Shown: piece by piece, positions 1,792-28,667 of the stretch
Layout of the letters: each line of letters opens with the position of its first letter
Position numbering within the stretch: position 1 is the stretch's first letter
Assembly: GCF_013702265.1 (NCBI RefSeq)
Contig: NZ_CP059348.1
Span: 3,348,001-3,412,000 of the forward strand
Direction: 5' to 3'
DNA: 64,000 bases
Source: Providencia rettgeri
GTDB lineage: Bacteria; Pseudomonadota; Gammaproteobacteria; Enterobacterales; Enterobacteriaceae
The notes under the pieces: generated by a model
Databases searched by the model: none
Told to the model about the DNA's origin: nothing
Seen by the model: only the letters and a program-made list of their open reading frames with translations
Translations under genes and position numbers: made by a program

Positions 1792-4284
1792 TTAATTACA
1801 TGGTAAGAGCAGTTTGTCGTAAATATTATGCTCTTCGATATTTTGTGGGAATGTAATCGTACATTCAGAACCTTGCCATGATACTGTCATTGTCTCACCC
1901 GGCTTTATTCCACCGATGTAAGCTTCACCTTGGTCACCCACAATACCTGTTGTCTTGCCTGCATTATTTTTAATATCCGCAGCAAATGGTGGGTAATTTC
2001 CATCTTGTAGTCTCAACGTCACCATCATTTTGATCCCAGAAATAACATCAAAACTACGATAACCTATTGCACCTTCAGTGAGTGTGGTTTGTGTTACGGA
2101 ATCCGCAATCTCAACATTCTTAGGTAATTTATTAATATCAACAACAACGTCTGTCTTATAGTAGCTATTAATATCAGGAACAACGACTTTTCCAGAACCA
2201 CTTGAGCGTAAATGTGTACCATTATATTTTACTGGTACATCTTTAACGCCATTTGTATCAACAAAAACTCGTGTTCCCCCTGTTGATGTGACAGGGTGCA
2301 TGCCTATTCCGTACCCCGTCAATGTCATGCCGCCTTGAACATTCGCAGATAATGACATTGAGTTATTACTTATATAGTTATAGCTGGTATTAAAGTCATT
2401 CATATTACCTTTATGGCTATAATAACTACTAAATATTCCGCTATGTCGATTATTACCGACAGAAAGTGAAAGGTTATCTTTATTTTCAAGACGCTCATTC
2501 ATTGTCACTTTATTCGTATTATCATTCTTACCGTTATACGTTGAATAATTGACATAAGTTCCTGATGCTAATGGAACTGAAAGGCTGACATAAACTCCAT
2601 TATCTTGATAACCCTGCATTTTGCTATTAAACATATTGATAGACAGACCGATATTATGAAACTTGCTAGTATCAAAATACTTCGAGAACGTCATGTTATA
2701 GCGATAACTATTTGGGCGGTTCCAATAGGTTTGGTGCGTGTAATTTAAATTTACGGATGAACGCCAATCAGTAAAGTTTTTACTTAGTGATGCAGAATAA
2801 GAGCCTTTATTGTGTCCTGCATACATAATATCTTTTTGGTCATTATAAGTGAGGAAATCACTCATCGTCATAAATTCACGATCCATAAAACGGTAAGCGG
2901 ATAATTGAATTTGACTATTACTTCCTTCGAAACTTTTATAATAATCGACTTTAAATGCTTTGCCTTTTAAGGTCGGCCCATCTGTCAGTGCGGCGATTGA
3001 ATGATTGAATGAGAACGAAATTGCACCAAATCGAAATAAATCACGTCCAACACCAGCAGCAAAAGAGTTAAATCGACTACTATTTAGCGCACCACCAAAA
3101 ACTGACCAACCATTGCTAATACCCCATGAAACCTCGCTTTGCGTGAAAGCATCCCCCATGACATGACGATCCATATCTGTTGGTCTACCCGCACTCACTT
3201 TATAGCGCACAGAACCTGGACGAGATAAAAAAGGAATATTTCCAGCTTCAACTTCAAACTCCGAAACGCGCCCGTCGCTCTCTTCAACTCTGACTTGTAA
3301 AGTCCCTGAAATACCGCTATTTAAATTTTGAATTCTAAATGGACCCGCAGGAACTAAACTTTCGTAAATAACGCGTCCATCTTGGCTAATTTTGACTACC
3401 GCGTTCGTTTCTGCAAAACCCGTTACCTCTGGCGCATATGAACGTAAGCTTGGTGGCAACATATTGTCGTCAGAACGTAATGAAACCCCAATAAACTTGA
3501 AGCTATCAAACAAATCTGTTTGCAGAAAATCCTCACCGAGGGTTAATTTCGATTTTAAGCTGCGAATAGCTCGATAAGCATAAATATTGGTCCATTTAAT
3601 CTCGTGAGCATCATCAACTCGACTATTCTGCGCATGGTTATATGAACCTTGCCAAAAACCTCGTAAACGCCAGCTATCAAAGTTAGCGCCGACGGCCCCT
3701 AATCCTGAAAGGAAAAAAGTATTGTTCGATTTGTTATCACCTAAACTACGGTTATATTGTGAGGTCAGATTATAGTCAAAAATAATACCTTTAATGCCAT
3801 CTTCCCAACGAGATGCTGATTCCCAGTCGTTGGCGGAATATTCCTGATAGCTTTTCGGAATATTAATAATTAATGTTCCGGTCGATAAATTAGGTGTTAC
3901 TGACATTCCTTCTAGGCTAGCAATATCTAAACACTCTAAGCCATCAATTGTATTCCACTGTAATACACTTTCAGCTTCCGAATTTAAGTCAAATTTCTCG
4001 ACAATTTCATCCGTTAAACACGCTTGCGATTTTTCTTCATAACTCACAACGGTTATTTTCTGCTCAGGTATATATGCGTTATTTATACTTAGTTTAAAGG
4101 GGTAAATGCCAGGAACAATATAAAGATCTTGTGAAAAAACTGCCAAATTAATATTTTCTCTATCTTCTGCGTTCAATATATTAATATTGAAGTCCACTGC
4201 TTCTTCAGAGAGAGCAATTAATGGATTCAGCAGTAATAAAGATACCGTAATGAGTTTTTTCATGAATTTATTTTTTATTAACAT
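1792..4284 (-). CDS. Outer membrane fimbrial usher
   Basis: An 830-residue usher. A signal peptide (MKKLITVSLLLLNPLIALS) begins at Met8. Then come an N-terminal periplasmic domain that receives chaperone-subunit complexes, a long beta-barrel segment rich in aromatic strands, a plug-like insert (around residues 280-360, with the LRSYAPEVTGFAETNA block), and two C-terminal domains ending with a Cys pair (SEC and LLPCN). It forms the assembly pore for the fibre in the outer membrane. Neither the ATG at 4284 nor the internal ATG at 4263 has a clear Shine-Dalgarno site, so the start may be 21 bases shorter. It is separated from the upstream major pilin gene by a perfect 16-bp stem-loop, which would lower its expression relative to the pilin. 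Confidence 0.93.
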   Translation of the reverse strand: MLIKNKFMKKLITVSLLLLNPLIALSEEAVDFNINILNAEDRENINLAVFSQDLYIVPGIYPFKLSINNAYIPEQKITVVSYEEKSQACLTDEIVEKFDLNSEAESVLQWNTIDGLECLDIASLEGMSVTPNLSTGTLIINIPKSYQEYSANDWESASRWEDGIKGIIFDYNLTSQYNRSLGDNKSNNTFFLSGLGAVGANFDSWRLRGFWQGSYNHAQNSRVDDAHEIKWTNIYAYRAIRSLKSKLTLGEDFLQTDLFDSFKFIGVSLRSDDNMLPPSLRSYAPEVTGFAETNAVVKISQDGRVIYESLVPAGPFRIQNLNSGISGTLQVRVEESDGRVSEFEVEAGNIPFLSRPGSVRYKVSAGRPTDMDRHVMGDAFTQSEVSWGISNGWSVFGGALNSSRFNSFAAGVGRDLFRFGAISFSFNHSIAALTDGPTLKGKAFKVDYYKSFEGSNSQIQLSAYRFMDREFMTMSDFLTYNDQKDIMYAGHNKGSYSASLSKNFTDWRSSVNLNYTHQTYWNRPNSYRYNMTFSKYFDTSKFHNIGLSINMFNSKMQGYQDNGVYVSLSVPLASGTYVNYSTYNGKNDNTNKVTMNERLENKDNLSLSVGNNRHSGIFSSYYSHKGNMNDFNTSYNYISNNSMSLSANVQGGMTLTGYGIGMHPVTSTGGTRVFVDTNGVKDVPVKYNGTHLRSSGSGKVVVPDINSYYKTDVVVDINKLPKNVEIADSVTQTTLTEGAIGYRSFDVISGIKMMVTLRLQDGNYPPFAADIKNNAGKTTGIVGDQGEAYIGGIKPGETMTVSWQGSECTITFPQNIEEHNIYDKLLLPCN

Positions 4285-20687: not shown

Positions 20688-22625
20688 GTGGCTTTATTCA
20701 TTTTGCAGCGACACAATCAAATTTTCTCTCGGATCCTCAATGAGGTTGTCCCTCAAGATGAATTAGCGAAACAGTTTTCCGTTTCCACCCGCACCATTCG
20801 CTCAGATATCAATGAAATCAACGAATTAATTAAAGATCATAGCGCTCATATTGTGTATGAGCGCGGGCGGGGGTATCGATTAAAAATCGAAAATGATGAG
20901 ATTTTTTCTACATTTACCAAACTTAATGATAAAAACAGCCAAATCCCACGCACCAGCAAAGAGCGTATTGATGCCCTATTGCTCAAGCTGCTAATGCTGT
21001 CCCTACCCGTCAAGCTCGATGATATTGCCGAAGAGTGGTTTGTTAGCCGCAGTACCATTCAGCAAGATATGGGAGCTGTTCGTGAACATCTTCATCGCTA
21101 TCAAGTTCAACTGGAAAGCATTCCCCATCAAGGGATCCGCTTAAATGGCAGCGAGTGGGCTATTCGTGCTTGCATGACTGAAGCACTCTGGCGGCAGTTT
21201 AGCGAGCAAATCACTCCCGACCTCGCCACATTCACGCCGGAAAGTCTGGATAATCTCGATTTAACCTACATTGATAAAGTGGTTCATAACAGCTTGAATC
21301 GCTTTGATATTCGCATCAGCAATGAAGGCCATCTTTATCTTGTATTTAACTGTGCCGTCACCATTTTACGTATTACCCGCGGCCATGAACTCACTGCCAG
21401 CGTCAACAACGAAGAATTAGAAGAAGTCATTACTCAAGCCTGTGATGAAATTTCTAAAGGGCTAATTTACTTCCTTGGCAATGATTTATCCCCAGCTGAA
21501 TTGAGCTTTTTGCACGACCAAATCATCGCACAGCGTATCAGTAACCAACACGCATCAACACAGAAGCATAATCATCACAATGAGTTATCTGAATATATCT
21601 TAAATTATATCAACGAGTTGTATAACTATGATTTGCGGAATGATGAAAAGCTAAAGAAAGATCTGAATACCCATCTTTCAGCCTTAATGACTCGCCTTCA
21701 ATACCATATTTCCACCCCAAACCCGCTGCTTTCAGACATTAAACAGTATTATCCGTTTGCTTATGATGTCACGTTAAGCGCCTTAACCAGTGCCAGTAAG
21801 CAGCTGCTTCCACATCCCATTAATGAAGATGAACTGGGTTACTTAGCGGTACACATTGGGGTTAGCCTTGAACGAAATTATGGGGCAGGCTCCGCACGCC
21901 AGACGGAAGTGTTAGTGGTCACGGATGCAGGTAACTCCACCTTTCGCGTGGTGGAATCCAAAATTATGCGTGAATTTCCACAGCTCAAATTTAGCCGAGG
22001 GCTAACACTGCAAGAGTATGAATCGTTGGATGAAGTCGCAGAAGACTTTGTGATCACCACAGTACGGATCTCAGAGAAAAATAAACCCGTTATTAAAATT
22101 GCGCCCTTTCCAACCCCCTACCAGCTCGAACAAGTGGGTCGCTTAGCGATGGTGGATCAGACCCGTCCCTATATTATTGAGCGCTTCTTCGATGAACGTT
22201 TCTTTATGGTTATCAATGAAAAAATTAGCCAAGAGACGCTATTCAAAACTGTCTGCCAGAAACTGCAACTAGAAGGCTATGTCACCGCAGATTTTTATCC
22301 GTCATTACAAGAGCGTGAATCCATTGTCTCGACATTGCTGGGTGAAGGGATCGCCCTTCCTCACTCTTTAGGGTTACTCGCCAATAAAACCGTGGTAACG
22401 ACCATCCTTGCCCCGCAAGGCATCGAGTGGAACAAAGAGACCAAAGAGAACGCCTATGTGATTTTCTTATTGGCAATCAGCAAAACTGACTATGAAGAAG
22501 CGATGGCGATTTATGATTTATTTGTCACCTTCGTCAAAGAGAAAACCACCCGCCGCCTTGTGAATGTCAAAAATTTCAATGAGTTCCAAGCTATCGCCAA
22601 AGATAGTCTCGCGCGAATTTTGTAG
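20688..22625 (+). CDS. PRD/EIIA-containing transcriptional regulator (BglG/MtlR type)
   Basis: A 645-residue regulator started by GTG 20688 with AAAGGGG upstream. The N-terminal winged HTH is at about residues 15-65 (DELAKQFSVSTRTIRSDINEIN) and a second HTH at 105-135 (DDIAEEWFVSRSTIQQDM). Two PTS regulation domains follow at about 190-300 and 300-400 (HIGVSLE, His389). An EIIB-like domain (405-485) reads VVTDAGNST where the phosphorylated Cys would be expected, so that residue is absent. A C-terminal EIIA domain (510-645) carries His559 (GIALPHS). PTS phosphorylation of the PRDs and EIIA probably tunes DNA binding. It lies directly before the catabolic operon on the same strand and is its likely activator. 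Ligand is unknown. Confidence 0.88.
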   Translation: MALFILQRHNQIFSRILNEVVPQDELAKQFSVSTRTIRSDINEINELIKDHSAHIVYERGRGYRLKIENDEIFSTFTKLNDKNSQIPRTSKERIDALLLKLLMLSLPVKLDDIAEEWFVSRSTIQQDMGAVREHLHRYQVQLESIPHQGIRLNGSEWAIRACMTEALWRQFSEQITPDLATFTPESLDNLDLTYIDKVVHNSLNRFDIRISNEGHLYLVFNCAVTILRITRGHELTASVNNEELEEVITQACDEISKGLIYFLGNDLSPAELSFLHDQIIAQRISNQHASTQKHNHHNELSEYILNYINELYNYDLRNDEKLKKDLNTHLSALMTRLQYHISTPNPLLSDIKQYYPFAYDVTLSALTSASKQLLPHPINEDELGYLAVHIGVSLERNYGAGSARQTEVLVVTDAGNSTFRVVESKIMREFPQLKFSRGLTLQEYESLDEVAEDFVITTVRISEKNKPVIKIAPFPTPYQLEQVGRLAMVDQTRPYIIERFFDERFFMVINEKISQETLFKTVCQKLQLEGYVTADFYPSLQERESIVSTLLGEGIALPHSLGLLANKTVVTTILAPQGIEWNKETKENAYVIFLLAISKTDYEEAMAIYDLFVTFVKEKTTRRLVNVKNFNEFQAIAKDSLARIL

Positions 22626-23107
22626 TTTCCTTTTATTTCCACCTCCTTGTGGAAAAAGGGAGGTGAGGACTATTTACGTGATCCTAACCACAACTCCACC
22701 AAATGATTTTTAGTCCAAATTGTCCACTTCATGCATAAACCAACGTAAGTGGAAGTGAAGATTTCCACTCTATATAGATTTCCACAAATTCATTTCCACT
22801 TTTATTTATTAACCTGAGAGCTATTTCCACTATCTCCAAAATATCTTTAATAGGTTGAAATATAATAAATTTATTATATTACTCATTATCCAGTCATCCC
22901 AAATCACCCTCTTAATGTGTTAGTTTTTCCAGTTAGCTTCCTCTTAGATCGAAAATTAACCGCCGCCCTTCCAGTTTCACTTCCAAAATATTTCCACTTT
23001 GAACTGGAAATTCCCTGTCTGCAAAATTATTCAAGAAGCGATTAAGGTATTAGTCATGAAGAAAAAAGTGATTTGATTTGAAATATTACCTTGGATTTTA
23101 AACAGTT
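22626..23107. promoter_or_regulatory. Operator array of TTTCCAC(T) motifs and promoter region
   Basis: A 482-base noncoding region between the regulator and its presumed target operon. TTTCCAC(T) occurs at 22636, 22762, 22779, 22793, 22824 and 22991, and in reverse at 22649 (GTGGAAA) and 22748 (AGTGGAA). The copies starting at 22762, 22793 and 22824 are exactly 31 bases apart. Two pairs form inverted repeats (22636-22655 and 22748-22769). A perfect 22-bp palindrome sits at 22859-22880. A candidate promoter is TTGAAA (22855-22860) with TATTAC (22877-22882). Confidence 0.65.
22859..22880. promoter_or_regulatory. Perfect 22-bp AT-rich palindrome
   Basis: An 11-bp arm on each side of the axis between 22869 and 22870, AT only, within the regulatory region of the catabolic operon. 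It overlaps the candidate promoter spacer. Confidence 0.55.
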
Positions 23108-23446
23108 ATGAATGAATCAGTTGTAGTTTTCAAAATGTTAGAAGACGACCTTGATATCCATCAGGTCACACAAGAACTGCTAGCAGTGATTACTGACTGG
23201 CTCAAACTGGAGGGTTGCTATACCACGGATGTACAGCAACAAATGCTGGAGTCTCATCTACGTGCCATGGTCGCTCGAGCCAAAACCGGTGAAGCCTTAC
23301 CGGAAGTGGATATCAGTTTGTTTGATGAAATCTCGGACCACTCCATTGCATTAGCGCAACGCGTTGTCGATACCTTGCCAGGGCTTGCGCCAGAAGAGAC
23401 TTATTTGCTCTCCGTTCACTTTGAAGTTGCCCGTTCTAATGATTAA
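23108..23446 (+). CDS. Stand-alone PRD domain protein
   Basis: A 112-residue cytoplasmic protein made of a single PTS regulation domain with no DNA- or RNA-binding part. Conserved His positions are His50 (LESHLRAM) and His104 (LSVHFEVA), expected to be phosphorylation sites of the PTS. E. coli YhfY is, from memory, a comparable stand-alone PRD next to an SFCGS-type protein (YhfU). It is the first gene of the operon, 58 bases before the SFCGS gene. It has a weak ribosome site. It may relay PTS status to the regulator or to the transport components; this is inference. Confidence 0.85.
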   Translation: MNESVVVFKMLEDDLDIHQVTQELLAVITDWLKLEGCYTTDVQQQMLESHLRAMVARAKTGEALPEVDISLFDEISDHSIALAQRVVDTLPGLAPEETYLLSVHFEVARSND

Positions 23447-23504
23447 TTTTTAGCACCTTATTTTTAGCACTCTATTTTTAGCATTCGGTCTTGGAGAATA
23501 TTTT

Positions 23505-23870
23505 ATGAAACAGATAGTTATTGTTATCGGCGATCGTTTAGGTAAAGGGCAAAAAGTGGCTGCAGGCGTTGAAGCTGCCGGCGGAAAAGCCATCGTTGTT
23601 CCCGGTGTCGCTGCTGACATGAAACTGGGGGATGTGATGAACCAAGAACAAGCTGATCTTGGCATTTCATTCTGTGGTAGCGGTGGTGCAGGCGCCATTA
23701 CAGCTCAAACCAAATATGGCTACAAAGCGCGTTATGGGATGCGTTCGATTGAAGAGGGAGAAACCGCGATTGCTGAAGGTTGCAATGTTTTAGGTTTCGG
23801 TTTTATGGACAAGGAAGAGTTAGGCGAGCGCTTAGTTAAAGCTTTTAATAAAAAATACGGCAACGCTTAA
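23505..23870 (+). CDS. Glycine-rich SFCGS family protein (DUF2620)
   Basis: A 121-residue protein with the family signature SFCGS at residues 55-59 (Cys57) and a following GGAGAITAQTK stretch. The N-terminal MKQIVIVIGDRLGKG looks like a first Rossmann strand. The block CGSGGAG...A..K.G and the later CNVLGFG (93-99) resemble the RpiB/LacAB isomerase pattern, where the Cys is catalytic. An EIIB-like phosphocarrier role is an alternative. Ribosome site TTGGAGAAT is good. Its stop overlaps the DUF4312 ATG by one base. The role is unproven; it belongs to a fixed cassette with DUF4310-4312. Confidence 0.88.
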   Translation: MKQIVIVIGDRLGKGQKVAAGVEAAGGKAIVVPGVAADMKLGDVMNQEQADLGISFCGSGGAGAITAQTKYGYKARYGMRSIEEGETAIAEGCNVLGFGFMDKEELGERLVKAFNKKYGNA

Positions 23871-24166
23871 TGAAAAAATCTATCGAAACGACCGTACGGG
23901 TGACAGGGCAAGGCGACACAAAGCAAAAAGCGATTGCTGACGCCTTAAATTCGATTCAAAAAACCGTACTTAAGAACAGCACCGACATCATTCTGCGGAT
24001 AGAACCCAAGGATGTTGAGGTTGTTAGTGCTCACTCTCATTCGCGGACAGAAAAGTTTCTCTTTCTCTTTTTGCCACGCAAACGTGAACATTTTCGCGTT
24101 GTTCTCGACGTTTCGCTGGATGTTACCTTACTTTCTGTCAACGAAATTCCATTTACAGAACAATAA
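23870..24166 (+). CDS. DUF4312 family protein
   Basis: A 98-residue soluble protein (no membrane segment), with a central hydrophobic stretch KFLFLFLPRKREHF and alternating beta strands (IETTVRVTGQGDTKQKAIADAL). It matches the DUF4312 pattern as I remember it. Its ATG overlaps the upstream stop (TAATG), so translation is coupled. It lies directly before the two membrane proteins DUF4311 and DUF4310, which suggests a cytosolic partner of that transporter. No enzymatic motif is visible. Confidence 0.82.
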   Translation: MKKSIETTVRVTGQGDTKQKAIADALNSIQKTVLKNSTDIILRIEPKDVEVVSAHSHSRTEKFLFLFLPRKREHFRVVLDVSLDVTLLSVNEIPFTEQ

Positions 24167-24192
24167 AAGCAATCAGGTCTGGAGTAAATTCC

Positions 24193-24984
24193 ATGAGTGA
24201 AACTGCATCTTTCTTAGAAATATTGGGCATGTCCCTCATTATCGGCGGTCTCTGCGGCTTTGGTTTAGGCGCAGGGGCGGCACGTATGTTCCACGCGCCA
24301 ACCGTTCAAGGTATGGGTGCATTCCGTACCCTTGGTGAGTTAAACGCGTGTGAGGGCGACCCCGCATCACACTTCTCGTTCGGTTTAGGATTCTTCTTCA
24401 ACGCATGGGCATCATCGGTCGCTGCGGGTGCCTTCACCCAAGACGTTGACCACCGCATCATCCCTAACTGGGGTGCCGCTGCTCTATTAACTAAAAACCG
24501 CAGCGTGGCAGATACCCTGCATAACCCGAAAAAAATGGCGATTGCCTGTGCCATTATCGGGGCATTAGTGGTCGCCTTCTTAAATACCACGGCGTCCGCG
24601 GTACCAGCCGCGCTACAAACCACCGCGATCAACGTACTGGTTCCTGCTGCTAACTTACTGGTTAACACCGTGATGCCCGTTATTTTCTGGTTAGCCGCGA
24701 TGGACGCAGGTCGTCGTTCCGGTTTCTGGGCAACCTTATTTGGTGGTTGCGCCCAATTAATCATGGGTAACGCTATCCCAGGTTTAGTGTTAGGGATCTT
24801 GATTGGTAAAGGCGTAGATGACAATGGCTGGAACCGTATCACTCGTACCATGATGATCACCGTTGTTCTGCTGTTCGTTCTCAGTGGCTTCTTCCGTGAG
24901 TTTGACCTGAAGATGATCACCTCTTTCAACTTAGACAAACCACTGTGGCTTGAATATGTCCACGGACTGCTGAGCGGGAAATAA
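24193..24984 (+). CDS. DUF4311 integral membrane protein, putative transporter subunit
   Basis: A 263-residue protein with about seven hydrophobic segments rich in Gly and Ala, beginning with LIIGGLCGFGLGAGAARMF. It contains conserved polar stretches (GELNACEGDPASHFSFG, FFNAWASSVAAGAFTQDVDHR) between segments that could line a substrate path. It resembles the DUF4311 family. It is followed by DUF4310 after 2 bases, so the two likely form one membrane complex. It is predicted to be inner membrane. The substrate is unknown and is inferred from the downstream enzymes. Confidence 0.85.
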   Translation: MSETASFLEILGMSLIIGGLCGFGLGAGAARMFHAPTVQGMGAFRTLGELNACEGDPASHFSFGLGFFFNAWASSVAAGAFTQDVDHRIIPNWGAAALLTKNRSVADTLHNPKKMAIACAIIGALVVAFLNTTASAVPAALQTTAINVLVPAANLLVNTVMPVIFWLAAMDAGRRSGFWATLFGGCAQLIMGNAIPGLVLGILIGKGVDDNGWNRITRTMMITVVLLFVLSGFFREFDLKMITSFNLDKPLWLEYVHGLLSGK

Positions 24985-24986
24985 TC

Positions 24987-25637
24987 ATGACAACTGAAAT
25001 CAATAAACAAGACTTTTGGTACGCGGAATGGTCTTTCCCTATCTTTGTTGGGCTGTTATCTGCAGGGATCTTCGCAGGTACCCATATGTACGTCGTGTAC
25101 GGGTTCGGCGCATTTAACGAAGTGGCTTTCGTCGCTATGTTACGCGCTGGGCTAGATACAGGGGTTTACGGTGCCGTCGCCGCCTTCGGTGCAAGCTTCC
25201 TGTTTGCGCGGATTATCGAAGGGTCATTAGTGGGGATTTTAGATATCGGTGGCGCACTGCAAACCGGTATTGGTTTAGGAGTTCCCGCACTCTTTTTAGC
25301 CGCAGGCTGGGATATTTTAGTCACCAACTTCTGGATTTCCCTGATCACTGGCTTATTCCTTGGGGTACTTATCGGCTTAATTATCGTGTTCGCCCGTAAG
25401 TTTACCATTGCACAAGCGAACTCAACATTTGGTGCGGACGTCATGATGGGCGCAGGTAACACGTCAGGTCGTTTCTTGGGTCCATTGATTATCCTTGCCG
25501 CAATGGCCGCGTCTATTCCGATTGGTATTGGCGCACTAATTGGCTCACTGATTTTCTATGTATGGCAAAAACCAGTCGCCGGGGGCGCTATCTTAGGTGC
25601 GATGTTGTTTGGGTATTTCTTCCCACTCGCCGCCTAA
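24987..25637 (+). CDS. DUF4310 integral membrane protein, putative transporter subunit
   Basis: A 216-residue membrane protein with about six hydrophobic segments. Gly-rich turns (FGAFNEVAFVAMLRAGLDTGVYGAVAAFGAS, GVPALFLAAGWD) and an ADVMMGAGNTSGRFLGP loop fit the DUF4310 family. It begins 2 bases after the DUF4311 stop and is followed by a 52-base gap before the amidohydrolase. Together with DUF4311 it is the only permease-like unit in the operon. No classical PTS EIIC motif is seen. Confidence 0.85.
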   Translation: MTTEINKQDFWYAEWSFPIFVGLLSAGIFAGTHMYVVYGFGAFNEVAFVAMLRAGLDTGVYGAVAAFGASFLFARIIEGSLVGILDIGGALQTGIGLGVPALFLAAGWDILVTNFWISLITGLFLGVLIGLIIVFARKFTIAQANSTFGADVMMGAGNTSGRFLGPLIILAAMAASIPIGIGALIGSLIFYVWQKPVAGGAILGAMLFGYFFPLAA

Positions 25638-25689
25638 TTAGCATTCCTCCCCCCATACCAATTGGGAGGAGGTAACAAAGAGAGACGTT

Positions 25690-26829
25690 ATGTACACCTT
25701 AATAATCAAACAGGGCAAACGTATCGATGGTTCAATCATCGATATTCTAATCAAAGACGGAAAAATCGAAGCTGCAGGTCCTGAGCTTTCCCACAATCAG
25801 CACGCTGAGAAAATCATTGATCTTGAAGGTAAGCTGTATGTTAGCGCTGGATGGATTGATTCTCACGCCCACTGTTTTGCCGAGTCGCCGATTTACTTCG
25901 ATGAACCTGATCTCGCTGGTGCCGCTGGCGGTGTCACTTCACTGGTTGATGCGGGCAGTGTGGGCGCTGATGATATTGACAGGTTTTATCGGCTCACCAC
26001 TCAATCCAAAACTAATGTCTTCTCTCTGCTAAATATTTCACGCATTGGCATTATTGCTCAGAATGAGCTGTCCAACATGGACAATATCGACGATGCGAGT
26101 TTTCAAGCCGCACTTGAGCGCCATCCCGGCTTTGTGGTGGGCATGAAAGCGCGTATGAGCAAAAGTGTAGTTGGTGAGAATGGTATTGCGCCTTTGGTTA
26201 AAGCCAAGGAGATGCAGAAAAAACACCATCTTCCATTAATGGTACACATTGGAAATAACCCGCCAAATATTGATGAAGTCGCCGACTTACTCACCCGTGG
26301 GGACATCATTACCCACTGTTTTAATGGCAAACCGAATAAAATTTTAGGGGATGATGGCTACCTAAAACCATCTATTGCCCGCGCCCTCGCCCGTGGCGTG
26401 CTCCTCGATGTGGGTCACGGCGGTGAAAGCTTTAGCTTCAAAGTCGCAGAGCAAGCCATGCGAATTGGCACCTATCCAGACATTATCAGCTCAGACATCT
26501 ATCACCGTAACCGTGTGAATGGCCCTGTTTATAGCCTTGCATTCGTGATGACGAAATTCCTGTGTATGGGCTTTAGCGCCGAACAAATTTTACGCTGTGT
26601 CACTGAGAAAGCCGCGGATTTACTGTCGCTTCCAGCTAAAGGTTATTTAAGACCAGGCTTTGATGCTGACATCACGCTATTTGACCTCAAAGAAGAGGCA
26701 ACCGAGCTGACGGATGCCGACGGCGAGCATCGCATCGGTACCCATCGTTTTGTTCCTGTTGCTGCCATCGTTGGTGGAAAGCACATTATTCCTGCACAAG
26801 GCGAATCTGAACATGCAATCAATCTATGA
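25690..26829 (+). CDS. Amidohydrolase/deacetylase (cog3964 type)
   Basis: A 379-residue metal-dependent amidohydrolase. The TIM-barrel metal ligands are visible: His59 and His61 (DSHAHC), Lys153 as the likely carboxylated Lys (GMKARMS), His186 (MVHIGN), His209 (ITHCFNG) and Asp269 (SSDIYHR). It belongs to the group often mislabelled dihydroorotase or adenine deaminase; from family knowledge some members hydrolyse acyloxy or acyl groups of small carboxylates. In this operon a de-N-acylation of an amino sugar acid or amino acid is plausible, but not shown. The next gene begins inside its last 17 bases, so translation is coupled. The start ATG has GAGAGACG nearby. Confidence 0.88.
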   Translation: MYTLIIKQGKRIDGSIIDILIKDGKIEAAGPELSHNQHAEKIIDLEGKLYVSAGWIDSHAHCFAESPIYFDEPDLAGAAGGVTSLVDAGSVGADDIDRFYRLTTQSKTNVFSLLNISRIGIIAQNELSNMDNIDDASFQAALERHPGFVVGMKARMSKSVVGENGIAPLVKAKEMQKKHHLPLMVHIGNNPPNIDEVADLLTRGDIITHCFNGKPNKILGDDGYLKPSIARALARGVLLDVGHGGESFSFKVAEQAMRIGTYPDIISSDIYHRNRVNGPVYSLAFVMTKFLCMGFSAEQILRCVTEKAADLLSLPAKGYLRPGFDADITLFDLKEEATELTDADGEHRIGTHRFVPVAAIVGGKHIIPAQGESEHAINL

Positions 26830-27925
26830 AAAATATCAGTTAAAACACGTTATTAATGCCTCCGGTCGTATGACTATTTTAGGCGTTTCGACCCCAACAC
26901 CTGAAGTGGTCGAGCGCGTAGCGTATGGGCTGAACCATTATTTTGAAATTAAAGACTTAGTAAACAAAACTGGGGAGTACATCGCTCAACTGCTCAATGT
27001 TGAAGCTGCGGTTGTGGTTTCCTGCGCCTCTGCGGGTATTGCTCAAGCGGTGGCGGCGGTGATTGTGCAAGATGATGAGGATTTACTGCTTAACTTGCAC
27101 TCCTCCAGCAAATCCGTTCCTCGCGAAATTATTTTGCCAAAAGGGCATAACGTGAACTTTGGCGCTCCCGTGGACACGATGGTCACGTTAGGTGGCGGTA
27201 AAGTGGTTGAAGCCGGTTTTGCGAATGAATGTAGTGCTGCGCAGCTAGCGGCAAAAATCACCCCGCAAACCGCCGCCATTTTGTATATCAAATCCCACCA
27301 TACGGTACAAAAGAGCATGTTAACCGTGGCTGAAGCGGCCAAAGTGGCGCATGCCCACCAGCTTCCGTTGATCGTGGATGCGGCCGCGGAAGAAGATTTA
27401 ACTGCCTATTACCAAGCGGGTGGCGACCTTGTGATTTACAGTGGCGCCAAAGCAATTGAAGGGCCGACCAGCGGCTTGGTTGTTGGTAAAAAACAGTATG
27501 TTGAATGGGTTAAACGCCAATCTCAAGGTATTGGCCGAGCCATGAAAGTGGGTAAAGAAGGCATTTTGGGCTTAACACTGGCTATCGAGCAGTACCTCAC
27601 CGCCACCAAAGAAACTGGGGCACAGATGGTTAGCCGTATGGATAAATTCCTTAAAGATTTAAATGCGATAGCCGGTATTTCAGCCCGTATTGTTTGGGAT
27701 GCCGCTGGGCGTGATATCGCCAGAGCCGAGATCAGTTTCGATGAAAAAGCGATTGGCAAAACCACTTACCAAATCATGGATGAGCTGAAGCAAGGCAATA
27801 CCGCGATTTATTTTCGTGAGTACAAAGCCAATGAAGGAAAGGTTGAGGCCGATATTCGCAGCGTCAGTACTGAGCAACTTGACGTCATTTCGCAGCAAAT
27901 TCGTACGCTAGTAGAAGGAATTTAA
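26813..27925 (+). CDS. DgaE-family PLP-dependent ammonia lyase
   Basis: A 370-residue PLP enzyme of the SelA-like fold, close in length to D-glucosaminate-6-phosphate ammonia lyase DgaE (about 372). The PLP Lys is probably Lys213 (SGAKAIEGP), with Asp189 (IVDAAAEE) for the pyridine nitrogen. DgaE eliminates ammonia from a 2-amino-2-deoxy sugar acid phosphate to give a 2-keto-3-deoxy compound. The start is ATG 26813, within the end of the amidohydrolase gene, because MQSIYEKYQLKHVINASGR is the family N terminus; upstream extension is meaningless. It is followed one base later by the aldolase gene. Function is strongly suggested but the exact substrate is not. Confidence 0.9.
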   Translation: MQSIYEKYQLKHVINASGRMTILGVSTPTPEVVERVAYGLNHYFEIKDLVNKTGEYIAQLLNVEAAVVVSCASAGIAQAVAAVIVQDDEDLLLNLHSSSKSVPREIILPKGHNVNFGAPVDTMVTLGGGKVVEAGFANECSAAQLAAKITPQTAAILYIKSHHTVQKSMLTVAEAAKVAHAHQLPLIVDAAAEEDLTAYYQAGGDLVIYSGAKAIEGPTSGLVVGKKQYVEWVKRQSQGIGRAMKVGKEGILGLTLAIEQYLTATKETGAQMVSRMDKFLKDLNAIAGISARIVWDAAGRDIARAEISFDEKAIGKTTYQIMDELKQGNTAIYFREYKANEGKVEADIRSVSTEQLDVISQQIRTLVEGI

Positions 27926-27926
27926 C

Positions 27927-28667
27927 ATGAAGTTGTCACCAAATTTTTACCATGACCGTGTGTGCCTGAACGTCCTAGCAGGGAGCCATCAAAACGCAAA
28001 AGATATTTATGCCGCGGCGGAGAGTTTTGTGGTTGTTGGAGTGTTATCCAAGAATTACCCTGATCTTGAAAGTGCCATTGCGGATATGAAGGTGTACGCC
28101 AAAGAAGTGGATAATGCGTTGTCTGTTGGTTTAGGTGCCGGCGACCCTAAGCAGTCCACCATGGTGTCTCTGATTTCAAAAGAAGTTCAACCTCAGCATG
28201 TGAATCAAGTGTTTACGGGCGCACCGATTAGCCGCGCGCTACTGGGTCAGAATGAAACGTTTGTGAATGCGTTGATTTCCCCAACGGGTACAGTGGGAAT
28301 GGTGAAAATTTCAACAGGCCCATTAAGTGCTCAAGCGCCCGATGGTATCGTGCCGATTGAAACCGCCATTATGATGCTCAAAGATATGGGCGCAGATTCT
28401 GTGAAGTTCTTTAATATGCAGGGCTTGAAGTACATTGAGGAATACAAAGCTATCGTAGAAGCTTGCGCGAAGTTTGATTTTTCTTTAGAGCCAACGGGCG
28501 GTATTGATTTAGAAAATTTCGCCGAGATCCTGCAAATCGCCCTCGACGCTGGCGTGAAGAAAATCATCCCGCATATTTACAGTTCTATTATCGACAAAAC
28601 TACTGGTGATACCCGCCCAGAGGATGTCCGCCAATTGCTAAACATGGTTAAAAACGCGGTAAATTGA
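27927..28667 (+). CDS. KDGP aldolase (DgaF-like)
   Basis: A 246-residue TIM-barrel aldolase, like DgaF (about 247). Characteristic stretches are NVLAGSHQNAKDIYAAAE, TGTVGMVKISTGP and GADSVKFF (Lys160, possible Schiff-base Lys). DgaF cleaves 2-keto-3-deoxy-6-phosphogluconate to pyruvate and glyceraldehyde 3-phosphate. It begins one base after the ammonia-lyase stop, completing the operon, and is followed by a terminator at 28749-28785. The pairing with a DgaE-like enzyme fits a route through a 2-keto-3-deoxy acid. Confidence 0.9.
   Translation: MKLSPNFYHDRVCLNVLAGSHQNAKDIYAAAESFVVVGVLSKNYPDLESAIADMKVYAKEVDNALSVGLGAGDPKQSTMVSLISKEVQPQHVNQVFTGAPISRALLGQNETFVNALISPTGTVGMVKISTGPLSAQAPDGIVPIETAIMMLKDMGADSVKFFNMQGLKYIEEYKAIVEACAKFDFSLEPTGGIDLENFAEILQIALDAGVKKIIPHIYSSIIDKTTGDTRPEDVRQLLNMVKNAVN

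Follow-up and report, generated by a model that had tools for sequence, protein, structure and literature searches.

Gene content and conservation of the cassette

An operon of putative catabolic function was analyzed in a Providencia rettgeri genome of 4.02 Mb, where nine genes on the plus strand occupy positions 20688 to 28667 of the stretch under study (the window; 64,000 nucleotides of contig NZ_CP059348.1, numbered from its first letter). Reading of the open reading frames (ORFs) confirmed the place and the common strand given to these genes by the initial annotation, which had been made from the sequence alone, and Pfam and NCBIfam searches agreed with the gene families it had named (Table 1). 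The gene order is regulator, a 482-bp gap, small PRD-type gene, SFCGS, DUF4312, DUF4311, DUF4310, amidohydrolase, DgaE-like lyase and aldolase. The junctions beyond the gap measure 58, -1 (overlap), 26, 2, 52, -17 (overlap) and 1 bp, in keeping with the spacing of 0 to 58 bases described before, whereas the 482 bp directly after the regulator, which hold the operator, had gone unmentioned. A longer ORF for the lyase, from 26714, begins upstream inside the amidohydrolase gene, and the gene start was placed at 26813. All seven cassette models (TIGR03577 to TIGR03583) were passed at their curated cut-offs by the operon proteins, the hypothetical equivalogs matched in NCBIfam being EF_0829, EF_0830, EF_0831, EF_0832, EF_0833, EF_0837 and EF_0839; the small PRD-type protein had no Pfam PRD match. 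DUF4310 is 100% identical to the copy of Providencia alcalifaciens DSM 30120, and the remaining cassette proteins are 93 to 100% identical.

Table 1. Features of the operon, in window positions
Feature	Position	Strand	Basis
Regulator, 645 aa: HTH_11, Mga HTH, PRDs, C-terminal EIIA_2	20688..22625	+	Pfam
Operator half-site array (ATTTCCACT / GTGGAA)	22636..22833		Word count in 482-bp gap
Full palindromic operator TTTCCACTTTGAACTGGAAA	22991..23010		Exact pattern match
Small stand-alone PRD-type protein (TIGR03582, EF_0829)	23108..23446	+	NCBIfam, 113.6 bits vs cut-off 69.35
SFCGS glycine-rich protein (TIGR03577, Gly_rich_SFCGS), predicted RpiB/LacAB fold, Cys57	23505..23870	+	NCBIfam, predicted fold
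DUF4312 (TIGR03578), small soluble protein	23870..24166	+	Pfam, NCBIfam
DUF4311 (TIGR03580), membrane protein, presumed permease subunit	24193..24984	+	Pfam, NCBIfam
DUF4310 (TIGR03579), membrane protein, presumed permease subunit	24987..25637	+	Pfam, NCBIfam
Amidohydrolase/deacetylase, EF_0837 type (TIGR03583, cog3964)	25690..26829	+	NCBIfam
DgaE-family pyridoxal phosphate (PLP) ammonia-lyase (TIGR01437; SelA/DgaE family)	26813..27925	+	NCBIfam
DgaF-type 2-dehydro-3-deoxy-phosphogluconate aldolase (TIGR03581, NF047796)	27927..28667	+	NCBIfam

Related loci were taken as the best 80 of 469 DUF4310 relatives on genome contigs, all of them gammaproteobacterial, together with four loci from a plasmid collection (two Bartonella, one Klebsiella and one Enterococcus), a sample that hardly touches the distant copies. 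The assigned genes are collinear and on the same strand in 84 of these 84 loci, and therefore the operon is real and not a chance arrangement. The initial annotation had staked its pathway on DUF4310-type genes keeping company with sugar-acid enzymes, and in the sampled loci they do: by ORF, the lyase was found in 84/84 and the amidohydrolase in 83/84, where the gene of L027 lies in two pieces. DUF4310 and DUF4311 were likewise found by ORF in all 84 loci, SFCGS in 83 and DUF4312 in 82; L057 is truncated at a contig end, and in L016 DUF4312 is continuous with SFCGS. The single SFCGS-DUF4312 ORF of L016 was set aside as a likely assembly error, as the regulator and lyase matches are split there too. 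The small PRD gene was detected in 77/84 loci by ORF and in 83/84 by tblastn. By tblastn the aldolase was not found in nine of the 84 loci (L028 to L035 and L040), eight from Xenorhabdus and one from a metagenome-assembled genome, and eda scored above cut-off in 8/8 Xenorhabdus genomes. Of the loci, 20 have the regulator upstream of the cassette and 55 have it downstream; in the other 9 it was left unassigned.

Among 299 genomes sampled across the phylum, 7 contained DUF4310; they include the genome of the window, and every one belongs to its family. Within this family, the Enterobacteriaceae as broadly defined by GTDB, 117 of 246 sampled genomes contained DUF4310. It was not found in the E. 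coli control genome, blastn gave no match among 5,426 E. coli genomes, and no DUF4311 relatives were found among the viral contigs searched. A genome named Klebsiella sp. BIGb0407 (L021) carries a Providencia-type cassette with a 96% identical DUF4310 and the regulator upstream, which points to a mislabelled genome or to horizontal transfer. The cassette of the Arsenophonus symbiont of Aphis craccivora (L027) appears to be decaying, with the amidohydrolase in pieces and the lyase incomplete. Occasional loss is also suggested by G448 and G520, where DUF4310 contains internal stop codons in one genome and gives a partial match in the other.

A palindromic operator upstream of the cassette

The 482-bp gap contains eight copies of TTCCAC/GTGGAA, while 0.33 are expected under a first-order Markov model and the maximum in 2000 simulations was 3. 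When 7-mers were counted without bias in the 350 bp preceding the cassette, separately for each locus type, AAGTGGA/AGTGGAA ranked among the top enriched words in Providencia-type (14/14), Xenorhabdus-type (9/9), Budvicia/Leminorella (4/4) and Klebsiella-type loci (37 to 39 of 46), including loci in which the regulator gene lies downstream. The aligned sites form a 20-bp palindrome, TTTCCACTTYGAAGTGGAAA, which is clearest in Klebsiella-type loci; sites from Xenorhabdus have the right arm AACGGAAA. Further sites in the window appear at three mismatches, at 22636 in the same gap and at 3239, with 0.14 expected at that looseness. Besides the operator, the gap contains a perfect 22-bp AT-rich palindrome at 22859 to 22880 (AATATAATAAA/TTTATTATATT).

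Allowing up to one mismatch, the pattern is present in 106 of the 246 family genomes, compared with 6 for a reversed control. It was found in 105/117 genomes with DUF4310 and in 1/129 without (odds ratio 1120, with a p-value inflated by shared ancestry). Places were listed for 72 of the 106 carriers, and in 71 of these the site lies 1747 to 2232 bp upstream of DUF4310. Other coding sequences harbor the G419 site and the additional sites in G299, G353 and G358. Two sites occur in 12 genomes, in nine of which the cassette promoter was read: both are at the cassette promoter in G487, while G306, G318, G326, G380, G435, G444, G464 and G530 have one site in the promoter stretch read and the other unlisted. 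The operator is therefore a specific mark of cassette carriers, most of which have a single site. G306, G444 and G530 belong to one genus, and the second site of each, outside the cassette stretch read, may mark a further regulated gene.

In the alignment of its relatives, the regulator retains H329 and H389 in 76/76 sequences and the EIIA residue H559 in 75/76. It is probably this regulator, the cassette's own, that binds the operator. The operator is newly found here and offers an immediate and inexpensive means of screening compounds for induction with reporters.

Enzymes, accessory genes and putative transport proteins

Both the lyase and the aldolase match families of the D-glucosaminate-6-phosphate pathway. 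The lyase is 44% identical (158/361) to the Salmonella D-glucosaminate-6-phosphate ammonia-lyase (DGL) and scores 585.2 against TIGR01437 (cut-off 385.3), and the aldolase scores 388.6 against the DgaF equivalog NF047796 (cut-off 300). For Salmonella DGL, the substrate phosphate was manually docked near Arg301, Arg332 and Arg346, and His163 is given as the proton donor (PMC9529869; available in part, as were all papers cited here). These arginines correspond to R304, R335 and R349 of the window protein, each kept in 84 of 85 alignment rows with a gap in the remaining row, and H163 is kept in 85/85. The triad favors a phosphorylated lyase substrate without proving one.

In the amidohydrolase, the presumed metal ligands H59, H61, K153, H186, H209 and D269 are present in 84/84 sequences. 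The N274/R275 pair following the catalytic aspartate is invariant and absent from the relative 2ogj; we suspect that it aids phosphate binding. The nearest studied amidohydrolase, Atu3266, reportedly accepts acetyl-(R)-mandelate as a substrate and, weakly, N-acetyl-D-serine, and we know of no physiological substrate for enzymes of the EF_0837 type. In the incomplete gene table for the Klebsiella and the two Bartonella cassettes no sugar kinase is annotated, and among the 84 loci a PfkB query matched only the Enterococcus faecalis locus.

Several loci carry additional genes. A 7-bladed lactonase is encoded in 35 of 84 loci and adjoins the aldolase in the gene order. A heuristic export signal was detected in 26 of the 35 proteins and by eye in four more; four from Buttiauxella are without one, and one was unreadable. 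L009 (12786 to 13940) and 34 other loci, Klebsiella-type cassettes, have the lactonase between aldolase and regulator, mostly with the export signal. An extracytoplasmic lactonase fits the opening of an aldonolactone ahead of uptake. In the two near-identical Bartonella plasmid copies an HPr-EI fusion follows directly after the regulator (L010, 8047 to 10062; L011, 14814 to 16829), as if the cassette brought its own energy source for the phosphotransferase system (PTS); the plasmids, of 55 to 56 kb and from bat-faeces Bartonella, have tssA (type VI secretion) nearby. The E. faecalis copy (L012, 9770 to 16485) differs by an inserted PTS IIC of the lactose/cellobiose family, a MupG-type protein and a small membrane-like protein, and by a PfkB kinase that follows the aldolase; the aldolase frame is interrupted in that record. 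This copy may represent a version of the pathway that handles disaccharides.

DUF4311 and DUF4310 are hydrophobic, while DUF4312 and SFCGS are not. The two membrane proteins were considered as related halves, and this was rejected (hhalign 1.7%, E 0.03). A Pfam scan of all nine proteins revealed no mannose-type PTS subunit in the operon.

According to a structure search with its predicted structure, SFCGS has an RpiB/LacAB fold. The profiles of SFCGS and RpiB (18 of 30 RpiB loci) match with hhalign 81.6% and E 1.1e-5, and SFCGS scores 16 against PF02502, below the cut-off of 24.7. Its FCGSG motif aligns with FCGSG or ICGTG of RpiB (the active-site cysteine loop, CGTG), and C57 is invariant (72/72). 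The catalytic histidine of E. coli RpiB is H99; the window's SFCGS protein contains no histidine at all, and thus lacks the catalytic one. No EIIB chain was among the 50 matches listed for SFCGS by each structure-search program, and matches of the DUF4312 and SFCGS profiles to the sequences of solved structures (PDB) were chance-like. The predicted RpiB/LacAB fold with its invariant cysteine is newly recognised here. The small PRD protein keeps H50 and H104 in 75/75 sequences of an alignment without E. faecalis and matches the PRD of the regulator weakly (hhalign 15.7%).

Proposed pathway, its alternatives and known systems

We tentatively propose that the operon imports and breaks down an N-acyl-2-amino-2-deoxyhexonate as its 6-phosphate via a PTS-coupled permease, N-acetyl-D-glucosaminate (GlcNAc1A, the C1-oxidised chitin sugar) being the likeliest compound. 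Taken as a whole, this proposal has somewhat less than an even chance of being correct, and its parts differ in strength. An N-acyl-2-amino-aldonate as the substrate class and a phosphorylated route are likely, and deacylation followed by DgaE/DgaF chemistry on the 6-phosphate is probable. A PTS link of the transport is slightly favored because of the phosphate-type enzymes, the PRD/EIIA regulator and the HPr-EI fusion. That GlcNAc1A is the main substrate falls just short of an even chance. The initial annotation had envisaged that an acylated 2-amino sugar acid is deacylated, deaminated to a 2-keto-3-deoxy acid and split by the aldolase; this scheme fits the sequence evidence, with the correction that the intermediates are most likely 6-phosphorylated, and transport would therefore be coupled to or followed by phosphorylation.

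In the proposed sequence of events, the lactonase of many Klebsiella-type copies would first open the aldonolactone outside the cytoplasm. DUF4311 and DUF4310 would form the membrane permease, and SFCGS, DUF4312 and the small PRD protein the soluble partners linking it to the PTS, whereby the substrate would enter as a 6-phosphate. The amidohydrolase would strip the acyl group, and the DgaE-like PLP enzyme would eliminate water and ammonia to give 2-keto-3-deoxygluconate-6-phosphate (KDPG), which the DgaF-type aldolase would cleave into pyruvate and glyceraldehyde-3-phosphate. The PRD/EIIA regulator would sense PTS phosphorylation and bind the operator just upstream of the cassette, making the operon inducible. 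The eda genes of Xenorhabdus are what a KDPG product would need, and speak for this pathway. A bolder version would see in DUF4310/4311/4312, SFCGS and the small PRD protein a phosphotransferase permease of a new class, without relation to the known enzyme II families, in which Cys57 of SFCGS carries the phosphoryl group in place of EIIB and the stand-alone PRD protein (H50/H104) or the EIIA of the regulator donates it; roughly half of the sampled Enterobacteriaceae species would thereby import N-acetyl-D-glucosaminate as its 6-phosphate. We consider this speculative and rather unlikely.

A number of results weigh against the proposed pathway. The lyase reaches only 378.1 against the D-glucosaminate-6-phosphate ammonia-lyase equivalog NF047797, whose cut-off is 600, and its arginine triad is also found in 8t7j. 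H162, which is described as conserved in all DGL sequences (PMC9529869), is kept in 83/85 rows and replaced by alanine in the two Bartonella copies. On the transport side, DUF4310 and DUF4311 gave no convincing match among solved structures, and the structure model of DUF4311 (pLDDT 42, from 44 close sequences) was unusable for a fold search. Profiles of EII-Sor, EIID-AGA, EIIC-GAT and EII-GUT, built from 30/30 Sor, 28/30 AGA, 28/30 Gat and 8/8 Gut loci on both strands and clustered, matched DUF4310/4311 with at most 2.45% in hhalign, a comparison without a positive control, as the known families reach at most 0.61% with one another. The predicted fold of SFCGS is of the isomerase type and not a known EIIB fold. 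The HPr-EI fusion might serve the regulator only. The E. faecalis copy has its PTS IIC, MupG-type and PfkB additions and a regulator with no EIIA_2 match, and the operator word was not seen by 7-mer count in the two Bartonella loci, E. faecalis being unusable. Regarding chitin, co-occurrence with lytic polysaccharide monooxygenase (LPMO) genes is weak, with DUF4310 in 29/48 LPMO-positive and 88/198 LPMO-negative genomes (p=0.054), and no chitin genes were seen at the operator sites that could be placed.

The window's own genome encodes an AA10-type LPMO away from the operon (G000:C1:2150508-2151002). An LPMO is found some 14 to 17 kb away from the cassette in G414 and G511, separated from it by trehalose-type and other genes (named by eye), and about 27 kb away in G279, where the stretch read stopped short of the cassette. 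This proximity was considered as a functional link and treated as synteny.

The same chemistry could be served by DUF4310/4311 as an ordinary secondary transporter, with a kinase encoded elsewhere and SFCGS acting as a true sugar-phosphate isomerase or sensor. The fold and active-site cysteine of SFCGS, the lack of similarity between DUF4310/4311 and the PTS membrane families tried (again without positive control) and the PfkB kinase downstream in E. faecalis all speak for such an arrangement. However, the PRD/EIIA regulator, the stand-alone PRD protein and the HPr-EI of the Bartonella plasmids all indicate the PTS, a sugar kinase is not annotated in the Klebsiella or Bartonella cassettes (as far as the incomplete gene table goes), and an isomerase role is hard to reconcile with the missing catalytic histidine. 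We therefore regard a secondary transporter as unlikely, though by no means negligible.

The substrate could also be another acyl, ester or cyclic amide 2-amino aldonate, such as N-acetylgalactosaminate, N-acetylmannosaminate or a glycated or lactam compound. This is quite possible while falling short of probable: the lack of a physiological substrate known to us for EF_0837-type enzymes, the acetyl-(R)-mandelate hydrolysis ascribed to their relative and the weak LPMO link leave room for it, whereas the use of D-glucosaminate-6-phosphate by the 44% identical Salmonella enzyme and the fit of the lactonase to an aldonolactone favor GlcNAc1A. A plain, dga-like D-glucosaminate operon with an accessory amidohydrolase would account for the DgaE and DgaF families. 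We consider it improbable, as the amidohydrolase belongs to the core of the cassette and its gene overlaps that of the lyase by 17 bp, a mannose-type PTS subunit, which the dga operon has, is missing from the operon, and the lyase stays below the equivalog cut-off for D-glucosaminate-6-phosphate lyases.

Under the proposed PTS-coupled pathway, a phosphorylated branch would be added to the handling of oxidised amino sugars, four DUF/SFCGS families would be explained together and possibly a new transporter class defined. The cassette is widespread and tightly marked, and the class of its transporter is its most interesting question. In two Aeromonas strains, OngB and OngC had at most distant matches, and the study leaves other deacetylases and deaminases open (PMC11653859); under the proposed pathway, the operon may supply the deacetylase and deaminase not found there. 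The operator, the predicted SFCGS fold with its invariant cysteine, the lactonase of 35 loci and the Bartonella HPr-EI fusion are new here, while the cassette itself had already been catalogued.

The initial annotation had called the DUF4310-4312 transporter undescribed. This holds insofar as searches by locus tags and family names found no paper that explains the cassette or names its substrate, but NCBIfam lists the set as hypothetical equivalogs of EF_0829-0839 and AHA_3910-3917. These E. faecalis and A. hydrophila loci are the same cassette, with all seven models above cut-offs, and the E. faecalis copy differs by its extra PTS IIC, MupG-type and PfkB genes. Three E. faecalis papers touch on EF0838/EF0839 in passing. 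In the available parts of two of them, a clone activated by urine consists of two fragments, one of which carries the ef_0839/ef_2975 promoter (PMC2912369), and EF_0838 is only listed (PMC11135667).

SFCGS shares its predicted fold and the active-site cysteine with the RpiB/LacAB isomerases but is shorter, lacks histidine (window protein) and stays below the PF02502 cut-off. The dga operon of Salmonella encodes a mannose-family PTS and is not known to include an amidohydrolase. The present operon resembles it in the DgaE-family lyase, the DgaF-family aldolase and phosphorylated intermediates, and differs by the DUF4310-4312/SFCGS set and the EF_0837-type amidohydrolase. The closest parallel in substrate and logic is the marine ong cluster, for which deacetylation of GlcNAc1A, deamination to 2-keto-3-deoxygluconate (KDG) and then phosphorylation by KDG kinase are described (PMC9537276). 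The ong route uses the free acid and an SSS symporter; its deacetylase is D-aminoacylase-like, with a Cys/His/His metal site, and its deaminase is a PLP enzyme of fold type III. A phosphorylate-first route was also weighed by those authors, whose findings spoke against it for the strain they studied; OngB is described elsewhere as another amidohydrolase subtype (PMC12017989). Unlike those of ong, the enzymes here are of the TIGR03583 and SelA/DgaE types, and the operon would represent a phosphorylate-first route to KDPG.

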